A stretch of 64,000 nucleotides of DNA. Origin: Telmatactis stephensoni. Taxonomy: Eukaryota; Cnidaria; Anthozoa; Actiniaria; Isophelliidae. Within the stretch, counting starts at the first letter, position 1. The number at the start of each line of letters is the position of its first letter. This document shows positions 41,601-53,600 of this stretch, in pieces. The stretch is taken from assembly GCA_029948255.1 (NCBI GenBank), contig JALIZF010001875.1, positions 682,001 through 746,000 on the forward strand, written 5' to 3'. A program made the position numbers and the translations under genes. The notes beneath the pieces are model-generated. The model made no database searches and was not told the DNA's origin. It was given only the letters and a program-made list of their open reading frames with translations.

Positions 41601-44600
41601 GGTACTTGACCAGCATTCATTTGTGGTAGTACTTGACCAGCATTCATTTGTGGTGGTACTTGACCAGCATTCATTTGTGGTGGTACTTGACCAACTCCTA
41701 TTTGTTGAGGTACTTGGACAAAACCAAGTTGACAAGGTACTTGACCAGCAACCGTCTGTTGTGGTGTTTGACTAACATTTGTTTGTGGTGCCGTTTGGTC
41801 TGAACCCATTTGTGGTGTTTTCTGATGAAAGGATTGGTTGATACATGTACTCGATTGCATTTGGGGTATTGGTTGATCAAAAGATAATCCTGTATTATTG
41901 TAGTCCATATAATATTGATTAGGAGCATTCAGAGGTCCCATTTGAGGAGGAACAACCGGCACATGCGGAGGATAGCCACCTCTAGGAGTGTTCAAATGTG
42001 TAATAGGGCTAAACATGTTAGCAAAAGGTATCGGTGGAGGAGGGACGGGTGGAGGTGGTGGGAGACGGTCATAGTTTGGTCTGTCTTCGGATGGAATAGT
42101 CTTTTGCTCCACGTGTTCGTTCACAATTTTCAAATCTTTTGTGTTATTCTTATCAGTTTCTGTAGTTTCACGTTCCAAGTCTTTATTATCAAGTGAACTG
42201 TCTAGTTTTAAAGATTCATCCATAGCCTTTTTATCATCGGATCCGAGAGACGACCGAACAGTTTCTGATGAATTCATATCATTGAGATCTTGGGTCTGTT
42301 CAATTTCAAGTTTTTGTTCAACATTCCCTGTGTGAGCAACACCATCTCCAGCATCCTCCTGGACATCATTTGGTGCACTAAAAACACAGATGTAAAGGAA
42401 CACTTTAACATGGTTTACACTACACAATCACAAGCGCAAAATACGGACACTCAGGGTCCGTGGGCGTTTCGTTCATTCAGAATTCAATTTTTTTGAAAAT
42501 TGAATTCACGTGCACCGATTCAAATTCGATCAGAATTCAATTTTTTGAAAATTGAAATCACCCGTACCGACTTAAATTCCAACCGGAACGCAATGAAAAT
42601 CGCTATATTCGTGTCAGATTTCAATTGATGTTCAAATTCAATATTCTGTTCCGGTTTTCGAAGAAAGAAGCAATACGGGGGTGACAGGTATACAAGTCGA
42701 AAGCAAGTGGAAGTGGGGGTGGTCAGGGGCGAAGTTTTCGGCGTATGCTGGTCACGTGACAATTTGGCGCCTTTCTCTGAAATCACATTCTGTCAACATG
42801 GACGATCTCGTGGAAGAAGAGTTTATGAAGGAGCTTATTGTCAAAAGAAAATGGACACACAAGGAAATCAGTGCGTTTTTAAATGAAAAGTATCCAGATA
42901 GACGTGGTCTAAGTGAGATGAGTGTCAGGAGGTATTGTGAAGCGCACAATATTCATAAAACGTCAAAACTTCCTGACAACCAACTGGACGTTGTTGTCAG
43001 TATCGCAGTTTCAAAGGTATGTAAGACTTTAGCATGTTTTTGCATTACATCCTCTACAGGATTCTTGGAAAAGGCTAATATTCAGATTGGGAGTTTTAAA
43101 AGAAAGAGAGATAATTGAAATAAGACACCTCACATAAGCGGACACGACGTCTCGTCAGCGGACACGGCTGGATTTTGGTATCTTTATCTTTTTGTTTTTG
43201 TTTTTGAGTAACGTTTAGAAATATTTAACACTTGGCAAATCTTCCATGAAGTTTAATATACTCGGTCTATATTGAAGGGTTATTAAGTACCCCACTCCCT
43301 ACCCTAGCTCTGTGGTATATTTACACAAGGGTGTGGACTGAGGTGTACCCTTCACTTTATGTAACACCTTTTCAATGGGACTACTGTTAGAGTTCAAAGG
43401 CTCAAAGGTATTTTTATTCTCCACACAAAATAGAATAATGTACATGAGATATAATATAAAGTGGCGGGTGCAAAAATACAACCCTAGGGGCTAGAAAAAC
43501 ATTTGCACCTGATACATTTTTTTAACAGAGTGGAGGGAGAGACAGTTGAGTGCTTCCAGTTGTAGTTACAAAATCATCCAACAAAGTAGTCATTTGAACA
43601 AGTTTCATTAAACAGGTTGGACCTACCTATGGGAGAAAAATGATTCAAGGCAAACTGGAGTCAGAAGGGATACGGGTTCATGATAAGAGGATTTCAAAGT
43701 CACTCAAAAGAGTTGCACCATGTTATCATCAACAAAGAGTTCAAAACAAGGCAAGGTTATTTAACCCTTTGCCATACAAGGCAGAATACTTTGGTCACAA
43801 AATGCATTTAGACCAGAATGAAAAATTGGTGATGTATGGATGTACGACAGTATTAGCTTCAGATGGCTACAGTAATTACATTTTGGCTGCTGCATCAATG
43901 CCAATAAAGAATAATGTGGAAATTTACAGAGCTGTTTTTAGGTGAGTGTTAATTAAGTGAATTAGAGGTATTCAGACCCTAAAAGCCCATATGACATGTC
44001 ATACCTATACTACCACAATCCTTTTTGAGATTTCTTTTCATATTAAAAATATTTATATCCTTTGGCAAATGAATACCAAGAAAAAAGTGAAAATTAGCAT
44101 AACAAAAGAAGCTACTGAAAAGTTTAGGTATGAAATGTCATAGCACTAAGACCTTGTCAAAGAAATATTTTATTAAGGGAAATTCTTTACTATATTTTGA
44201 TATTTTTGGGATGTTTTGATAATTTACAAGACAAATTTTCAGCAATATATTTGAATAATGAATTGAAGATTCACAAATTCTATATAATTTATTTTAATTC
44301 AGGCCAGTACTCTTGGAATATGGTCTTTGGGACCAGGTCAGAGTTGACTGTGGAAAAGAATTCTACTTGATATTATTCGTGCAAGAAGCTCTGGCTCCTC
44401 AGAGGCATAACACTTTAAGAAAGCCTTATGTACAAACACCATCAACCAAGGTGGGTAACAACACTAAAAATGTGGTACTTTTGTATTTGATTGATATTTT
44501 CTACACATGAAAAACAGATATCCTTTGTTACTTCAGAATTTCCCTGGTATATATTCGTGATTTAGAGGGCTAAAGTAAAGAACCATAGCCTAAGTGTTTT

Positions 44601-50600: not shown

Positions 50601-53600
50601 TTGAGAGCTCTCATACGACAACCTTTTTTGAAATAGGTGTATACACTGGCGGGAGCAAACTGTACGGTAAACCAAAACAAGAATAATAAATGAAAAAATA
50701 TACGAAAGTGAAAGATAAATCTGTGATCTATAGGCGTATATGAGCCCAGTTACTAAAATTAAACGATCTTGATATTTGTTGACTTACTTGAAAGTATCTC
50801 CCTAGTCTTTCTGCAGTTATAGTCGATCTTCGAAGACTTATCTCTTTTCCACCACTTAAGAAACTAAACATTGGGTCAGTGGAATGCCAGTTACTAGTAT
50901 CTGAGGACATTTTTGCTTGTATCTTATTAACAGAGCAAGTAGCGCAAATTACAGCAAGAGTGATATTACCAAAGTCCCAAAAGTTCCGAAGGCATGTGTA
51001 GTGTCACGTGAACAAAAAGGCGCCAAATTGTCACGTGACCAGCATACGCCGAAAACTTCGCCCCTGACTACCCCCACTTCCACTTGCTTTCGACTTGTAT
51101 ACCTGTCACCCCCGTATTGCTTCTTTCTTCGAAAACCGGAACAGAATATTGAATTTGACCATCAATTGAAATCTGACACGAATATAGCGATTTTCATTGC
51201 GTTCCGGTTGGAATTTAAATCGGTACGGGTGATTTCAATTTTCAAAAAATTGAATTCTGATCGAATTTGAATCGGTGCACGTGAATTCAATTTTCAAAAA
51301 AATTGAATTCTGAATGAACGAAACGCCCACGGACCACTCAGGTTACGATAATACCAATCCCGATAAATTTGAAAATGCGTCTTTTGCATCAATTTCCATG
51401 GAGAAAAAAAGAAAGAAAGTTGATGTTAAGGAAAGAAGAAAAGAAGAAAAGAAAGAAAGAAAGAAAGAAAGACAGATAGACAGACAGACAAGTACATACC
51501 GAAACTGCGTAATGTTGCTTGCGCGCATGCGTTCGTCGCTAGTGCGAACCAAGCCTAACAATGTTTGGCCTCAGTCTGCCAGAACGTTCGAAACTTAACA
51601 AATACTCGTAATTCTCAGCTTGCCAATTTTTTATTGCCATTTTAACTCCATGCACGCATACGAAGCAAAATATTTGAGATCTCGAACTTTGTCCATCGGT
51701 CATTTACACTAAGAGGTCACGTGACCTCAACTGCTTTAAATCGAGGAGTGCTGAAATATACAAAATAAACAGGAGGGAATTTTGCATGCACATGTGCTCT
51801 TACCAGCCTCAATGTATATTCCTTAGAATTTGGTAACAGCCAGTGGAAAGGCAAGAAATAAGTATGGATGAACAAACCAAATACTTTAGATTTTTCCCGG
51901 GTTAATTTTTGCTCAAAGTTTTAATTAAAACGGGATATCAAAGCTGACAATGGGTAACATAACTCCAAACATCCAGACGGCTCGTTTTCTATTGTTTATA
52001 CTCGTTAAAAAAATTTGAGAGTATCCCAAGGGAACAAAGATGACATTCCAACCAGTTTGAAAACAATAGCTACTCATTCTTAAAGAGGTTTGTCATGTTG
52101 TATTGAGAAAACTGTGTCACATAATGGATTTCATCTAATGGGTTTATGATGGTATGGAGCTACTAACCTCTCAGCTTCAGCAATGTCAGGAAGAATACTC
52201 TCGGTTCTATCATCTTTTTCTTCTTCCACATTATCTTTATGACAAGAAATATCCTCTCCTTGAGATTCAATCTCAGATACATTCAACAGTGTATTAGGCG
52301 AAATATTTTCTGATTCTTCATCGTCATTCAATGTATCCATTTGTTTAATATGTGTTTTTAGTGATGATTTCTCAGGTGATTTTTCGCACGATGGAGAACA
52401 AGATCTGTTTTTGCTTAACCCTCGTTTAGAAGGAGACCTACTATTGGCTGGTTTTTCATCGTTAATTTTGGCTGAAGTTGTTTGACTAGTTTCCAGTATT
52501 CTTGTAGGAGATATACTACTTGAGGAGCGATACCGCTGGTTTGTGCCTGAGTCATGTCCAGGGGATGATATACTACTCAATATTTTATCTTCTCTTGTTT
52601 CTGTTGAATATCTCCAGGATTTACTGTGATCCCTTGGAGACTTTTCCCTTGAGTATTTTTTCTCTGATCTGTGGTCCTTCAAAGGTGACCGATTTCGTGA
52701 TCTACTCCGTGACCTATTCCATGACGTACTATATGACCGATTTCGTGACGCATTGGGTGACCGATTTCGTGACGCATTGGGTGACCGATTGCGTGACGCA
52801 CTAGGCGACCGATTACGTGACTGACTGCGCGACCGAGAGCGTGATGAATAAGATGTACGATTTCTATTGGATCTTGACTTGTAATCAGACAACGCTCTCA
52901 TAGATTTTTTATCCTTTGAAGATGTTCCACTTTGTGAATTACGACGCTGGTATTTGTGAGATACTTTTTCGCTGGACGGCGACTTACTTCTCGACTTATA
53001 ATGTTTTCGTTTTGAGGTTCTTTCTTCTGTTGGTGACTTACTCCTTGACTGATACCTCCTCCATTGCCTTGATGTTGTACCTTTCTTTGGTGAGGCACTA
53101 CGTGATCTACGTCTGTGATATTTTGAATCTGAAATGTTCTCTACAGAGGGACTCATGCTTCGAGATTTGTGTCTTCGTTTTGTCAGTGAAGGCGGGCGAT
53201 CCTTCGTTGGTGTTTTACTACGTGAATGATGTTTGTGTTTTTGGCTTTTTGTTTTCTCCTTCGATGGACTTCTACTACGCGATTTTCTTTTGTGTTTCTT
53301 TGACTCGTGCCTAGTTTCATTTGTTTTTTCTTCTCTCGATGACTTCATGCTTACGGCCGTGTCATTTTCGTGACTGTGTTTTCTATTCGGCTTTTCTTCT
53401 GTGAAACTCTTTCTTGAATGTTGTTTGTCGTCATCACCCGAATCACTTCGACTTTTCTTGCTTTTCTTCTTCTTATTCGGCTCTTCTACATCGGGTTGTG
53501 ATGTTTTTTCCTTGCTACTTTCATGCTTCACGCTATCTTTATGTGCGTCGTCTGTTCTAGCAGTGTGCTCAGTTTGTTTGGCGGTGATTGAGCTTTCAGG

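Follow-up and report, generated by a model that had tools for sequence, protein, structure and literature searches.

In the 64,000-nucleotide stretch of the Telmatactis stephensoni genome analysed here (contig JALIZF010001875.1, C69:682001-746000; hereafter the window), positions 42455-51335 very probably hold a two-gene DNA transposon of 8,881 bp whose transposase is integrase-like and related to those of IS3 and IS481. The element does not represent a new superfamily but an unusual relative of an already known transposon group, its terminal sequence and its conserved RING gene being the features that remain unusual. A first-pass annotation of the window had recognised an integrase-type transposon at this place, and this is confirmed below. 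Its proposal of a separate superfamily, which rested partly on an apparent 8-bp target-site duplication, falls because the duplication is 6 bp, a length already published for IS3EU and GingerRoot in the available text of PMC10045372. With the false 8-bp integrase superfamily removed and a mechanism put in place, the element stands as an integrase-type DNA transposon of an animal genome with very recent movement, which has near-identical copies, a conserved second gene and a sister family with an empty site.

Ends, duplications and transposase

The ends of the element in the window are the following:

42449-42454, unstranded: left target-site duplication ACTCAG, 6 bp (flanking bases; boundary fixed by three other complete copies)
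42455-42774, unstranded: left terminal inverted repeat, 320 bp, starting with GGTCCGTGGGCG (arm comparison)
51016-51335, unstranded: right terminal inverted repeat, 320 bp, ending with CGCCCACGGACC (arm comparison)
51336-51341, unstranded: right target-site duplication ACTCAG, 6 bp (flanking bases)

The two terminal arms are 99% complementary, with 3 mismatches in 320 positions, so that the long inverted ends of the first-pass annotation stand with one base more than the 319 bp it had given. Palindromes were also scanned for in the ends, with 1 and 3 hits against a crude shuffle control, and no weight is placed on them. The whole genome (483.5 Mb in 1,782 contigs) was searched with the left end as query, which gave at least 37 matches. 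Three more complete copies with both ends were found, on C179 (9,016 bp), C84 (15,823 bp) and C256 (14,970 bp); the latter two are swollen by large nested insertions of ~6.8 kb and ~6.3 kb, respectively, which are intronic by their alignment positions. Comparison of the complete copies settled the termini of this family (family A) as GGTCC..GGACC. With these ends, all four complete copies are flanked by perfect 6-bp duplications, namely ACTCAG in the window and CTTTTG, AACAAT and CAGTCC in the C179, C84 and C256 set. Apart from three short or degenerate loci considered below, the other fetched loci had at most one recognised end (C83, for instance, the right end only).

A 6-bp duplication was also found in a sister family (family B) at C453:116827-122799. 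This element of 5,973 bp has the ends AATCCGTGTACC..GGTACACGGATT and the duplication AAGTTT, while the homologous contig C72 is without B and has a single AAGTTT at the site, which is thus an empty site; the joined flanks of B match C72 at 99.7% over 2,532 bp. Families A and B have NNTCCGTG in common at the extreme end, and their outermost bases are GG..CC and AA..TT, respectively.

The transposase is encoded by gene 1, which is spliced and free of stops as previously annotated:

42798-45768, + strand: gene 1, transposase, 405 amino acids, five exons (spliced open reading frame; Pfam rva_4, PF24764, E 1.7e-16)
42798-43016, 43616-43941, 44303-44450, 44932-45136 and 45449-45768, + strand: exons of gene 1 (GT-AG introns, stop-free)

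Among Pfam models at E values up to 1, the window transposase matched rva_4 and HTH_32 only, and no zinc finger, OTU or Ulp1 domain was matched at this threshold. Relatives were found in Exaiptasia (79% identity) and Xenia (66%), and further ones (~36-53%) in other cnidarians, sponges, hemichordates, teleosts and one mollusc. Judged by these matches, the transposase is a member of an animal-wide rva_4 family, whose proteins are labelled uncharacterized or integrase core domain in the databases. Of 15 aligned members, all matched rva_4, nine IS3, eight IS481 and one the classical rve model. The family B transposase also has 405 amino acids, is 46% identical to that of family A over 391 residues and is interrupted by four introns at corresponding places. 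The AlphaFold model of P0001, the relative with 79% identity, has a high predicted local distance difference test score (pLDDT 92.3) and an integrase-like predicted fold, the nearest folds in Foldseek being TnsB, IstA and retroviral integrases. In the transposase of the element, D139, D197 and E236 form the putative catalytic triad. The rva_4 match, the fold of this relative and the inverted ends together support the assignment to integrase-type DNA transposons.

A profile search of PDB by sequence returned a single row (E 0.99), which was not used; tblastn with P0001 found no match in plasmids; and in a scan of viral contigs none of 32 pattern stretches encoded a relative. In the genome_contigs scan, two of 40 pattern stretches did so, both in bacterial sponge-symbiont bins (L041, LWTN01000144.1; L042, QPIL01000047.1), where pieces of an rva_4 transposase are present. 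Because the intron of L041 lies at the position of the animal gene's first intron, the two were rejected as prokaryotic relatives and taken as probable contamination from the sponge host. A RING gene was looked for in L041 and L042, and none was found.

The RING-type second gene

The second gene and the insertions nested in it are placed as follows:

47016-50910, - strand: gene 2, RING-type accessory protein, 379 amino acids as spliced in the window, damaged (spliced open reading frame; related gene in family B)
50788-50910, 49911-50364 and 47016-47578, - strand: exons of gene 2 (window splice model)
50360-50641, unstranded: nested miniature inverted-repeat transposable element (MITE) at 50362-50639, 278 bp, with TA on each side, in the coding start of gene 2 exon 2 (empty site in C179)
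47810-48731, + strand: nested piece in gene 2 intron 2, with a poly-C tract, a reverse-transcriptase 3' open reading frame like that of long interspersed nuclear elements (LINE; 47883-48608) and a TCTG repeat (sequence comparison)

Gene 2 is convergent with gene 1 and has a RING-like C-terminus, both as described in the first-pass annotation. The RING-type pattern C..C..CC..GC..C..CP.C is present in C179, C84, C83 and family B, which read CLIC or CTIC at the place where the window has CLIW, a cysteine being replaced by tryptophan. Family B likewise has a convergent accessory-related gene after its transposase gene, with position and orientation matching those in family A. In a short-word-limited protein search, the best match of the accessory protein was a protein of the anemone Actinostola (52% identity over 79%), which was also the sole related protein; the RING region in the same type of search yielded nine candidates, none of them significant. 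For P0121, a relative of the accessory protein, AlphaFold gave a poor model (pLDDT 47.7).

Gene 2 had previously been called intact, which does not hold for the window copy. The exon 2 acceptor of C179 is retained in the window, and translation from there reaches a stop within the 278-bp MITE; the gene is stop-free only if an AG in the end of the MITE is used as a candidate splice acceptor. Together with the lost RING cysteine, this suggests that the window copy is unlikely to yield a normal RING protein. As for the other complete copies, both genes of C179 were free of visible breaks. In C84, exon 2 of the accessory gene is frameshifted, and in C256 the accessory gene contains stops and exon 5 of the transposase gene is shifted by one base.

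Both genes have nevertheless been maintained by selection, since the ratios of nonsynonymous to synonymous divergence (dN/dS) are low in exon 3 of the accessory gene and in exons 4 and 5 of the transposase gene. For accessory exon 3, comparison of the window with C179 gives a dS of 0.435 and a dN of 0.092 (ratio 0.21, 184 codons). Comparison of the window with C256 gives a ratio of 0.03 for transposase exon 4 (68 codons) and of 0.17 for the final 270 bases of exon 5.

Two related MITEs, with CACCTATTTCAA and CAGCTATTTCAAAAAACGTT ends and TA on each side, are located at differing places in two copies, one at 50362-50639 of the window and the other in C179 (L009) after element position ~2151. 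The nested piece at 47810-48731 is present in C179 and C256 and absent from C83; its open reading frame at 47883-48608 looks LINE-like in our own reading of the sequence, which was not search-based.

Proposed mechanism and placement among known transposons

From the structure described above we infer a cut-and-paste movement, in which the DDE-type transposase of gene 1 would bind the 320-bp ends, excise the element and join it to the target through attacks set 6 bp apart, and gap filling would then leave the 6-bp duplication. The gene 2 protein, which consists of a conserved N-terminal part and the C-terminal RING, would most likely serve as an E3-ligase-like helper whose targets are the transposase or host factors. 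The window copy, if still mobile, would need this helper from another copy. Should the RING partner be needed, the movement of the group would depend on an element-encoded ubiquitin-type helper.

Several points weigh against this reading. The movement is read from sequence and no transposition was observed; the E3 activity of the RING protein is putative, and the Pfam RING models remained below cut-off (best 1.6e-4, family B). The Foldseek template modelling scores of P0001 are low over the full chain (best 0.34), and the transposase tree is made up of rva_4 proteins only, named references from IS3EU, Ginger and bacteria being absent. Among the short or degenerate loci, the flanks of C14 and C45, each with two recognisable ends, agree at 3/6 and 1/6 positions, respectively, and those of C186 (ATTAAC/ATTATC, read by eye) at 5/6. 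The C45 locus (C45:543402-543769, L019) is a 366-bp element with family A ends and likely a MITE of this family.

A closely related explanation, which we consider reasonably probable, is that the element is a plain IS3EU/GingerRoot member, with terminal bases differing by chance and the RING gene as another variable second gene comparable to the alpha-kinase gene of fungal IS3EU. In the available text of Kojima and Bao 2023 (PMC10045372), IS3EU and GingerRoot are described as having 6-bp duplications, a transposase without the HHCC finger and long inverted ends. The element here agrees in its 6-bp duplication (all four complete family A copies and the family B empty site), in an integrase-like core without that finger (rva_4 and the fold of the P0001 model) and in its long inverted ends. 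For fungal TET+ IS3EU, the accessible part of PMC12730594 reports a second gene that runs opposite to the transposase gene; it encodes an alpha-kinase, whereas the second gene here encodes a RING-type protein. Styx of Zymoseptoria, whose transposase was traced to IS3EU by its authors, is similar in having ~8 kb, several genes and, in its progeny, new insertions with 6-bp duplications, for which a non-replicative mechanism was suggested (PMC10853768, in the portion available); in contrast, it is fungal, and its accessory genes are GATA, CCHC and DUF3577. What speaks against plain membership is the terminal sequence, since according to PMC10045372 the ends are always TA..TA in IS3EU and either TA..TA or TG..CA in GingerRoot (fungal IS3EU, TAYGG..CCRTA), whereas GG..CC and AA..TT are found in families A and B. 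Because the ends depart from this rule and the tree has rva_4 proteins only, the element is not filed here as an IS3EU/GingerRoot member, though it works like one in a comparison made by published descriptions.

More tentatively, the animal rva_4 elements may represent a deep lineage of their own beside IS3EU/GingerRoot, being two-component elements in which an element-encoded RING E3-like protein is the standing partner of an integrase-type transposase and the outermost GG/AA before the shared TCCGTG is free to vary. No RING partner was met in the literature surveyed on IS3EU, IS481EU and GingerRoot, which was covered mostly at listing level and without Repbase entries and subscription papers, and absence from print is not claimed; the word 'ring' has no occurrence in the accessible part of PMC12730594.

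It seems rather unlikely that the RING gene was captured from a host and has no part in transposition. RING proteins are common among host proteins, and the accessory gene is damaged in three of the four complete copies (window, C84 and C256). However, its place and direction are alike in two families whose transposases are 46% identical, the ratio of 0.21 indicates purifying selection on exon 3 between copies, and the short-word-limited protein search gave a single relative, that of Actinostola, and none with the RING region.

Other integrase-type groups were ruled out. Ginger1 has 4-bp CCGG/CCGT duplications, TGTNR ends, a zinc finger, GPY/F and OTU or Ulp1 in the available description (PMC2836005), and Ginger2 has 4- or 5-bp duplications (PMC2836005; PMC10045372, likewise in part). 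Both share with the element an integrase-like transposase and long inverted ends. The varied 6-bp duplications, the GGTCC ends and the lack of a zinc finger, OTU or Ulp1 match exclude Ginger1, and the 6-bp length excludes Ginger2, in line with the first-pass annotation, which had kept the element apart from Ginger. IS481EU, a one-protein group of parabasalids, has duplications of ~4, 15 or 25 bp and terminates in TNT..AYA according to the available text of PMC10045372; it is similar in its IS3/IS481-related transposase but differs in the length of the duplication and in its ends, and is excluded on these grounds. A new superfamily combining a retroviral-like integrase with 8-bp duplications is extremely improbable: the window flanks do repeat CACTCAGG, but this is the 6-bp duplication plus one matching base on each side (the C and the G are coincidental matches), and all three other complete copies, on whose duplications the first-pass annotation had let its claim depend, agree at only 7, 6 and 6 of 8 positions in the 8-bp frame, yet at 6/6 in the 6-bp frame, the family B duplication with its empty site also being 6 bp. 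The same counts rule out the 8-bp types hAT, P, Zisupton and Merlin. Polintons carry, in addition to the integrase, a DNA polymerase B of their own and virion-type genes. They were rejected as well, since the open reading frames of at least 100 amino acids in the element are accounted for by exons of gene 1 and gene 2, by the LINE-like fragment and by two further short frames, a count that heavily spliced genes may escape.

Copy history and surroundings

Between the copies on C179 and C84, identity is 99.89% over 7,305 bp and 99.83% over 1,714 bp, with 7 substitutions and 2 gaps in total, and the two occupy different target sites. Because they are near-identical at different sites, the movement of the element is very recent, which upholds the recent activity previously read from the few mismatches between the window's own ends; the C179/C84 pair is the better evidence of it. 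The alignment of the window with C179 is a mosaic, with identities of 99.1% on the left, 95.3% in the middle and 98.3% and 99.6% rightward. Such a mosaic is general among the copies (window element versus L009-L013), with outer parts ~99% and middle parts 91-95% identical, as if sub-lineages had recombined. On the transposase side, the copies on C179, C84 and C256 (L009, L010 and L013) have ~75 additional bases of repeated end sequence, which the window is without.

The sequence around family B looks like an older B-type copy within a family A end; it is bordered by GTGGGC on either side in C453 and by the pair ATGGGC/GTGGGC in C72. The regions C453:114000-138700 and C72:984500-1009300 are >99% identical over long stretches and may represent two haplotypes or the outcome of a recent duplication. 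In the window, long open reading frames on the - strand flank the element at 40739-42427 and 52131-54002, one of them arginine/serine-rich. By their appearance they are probably exons of a single host gene, and the element would then lie in its intron in antisense orientation.

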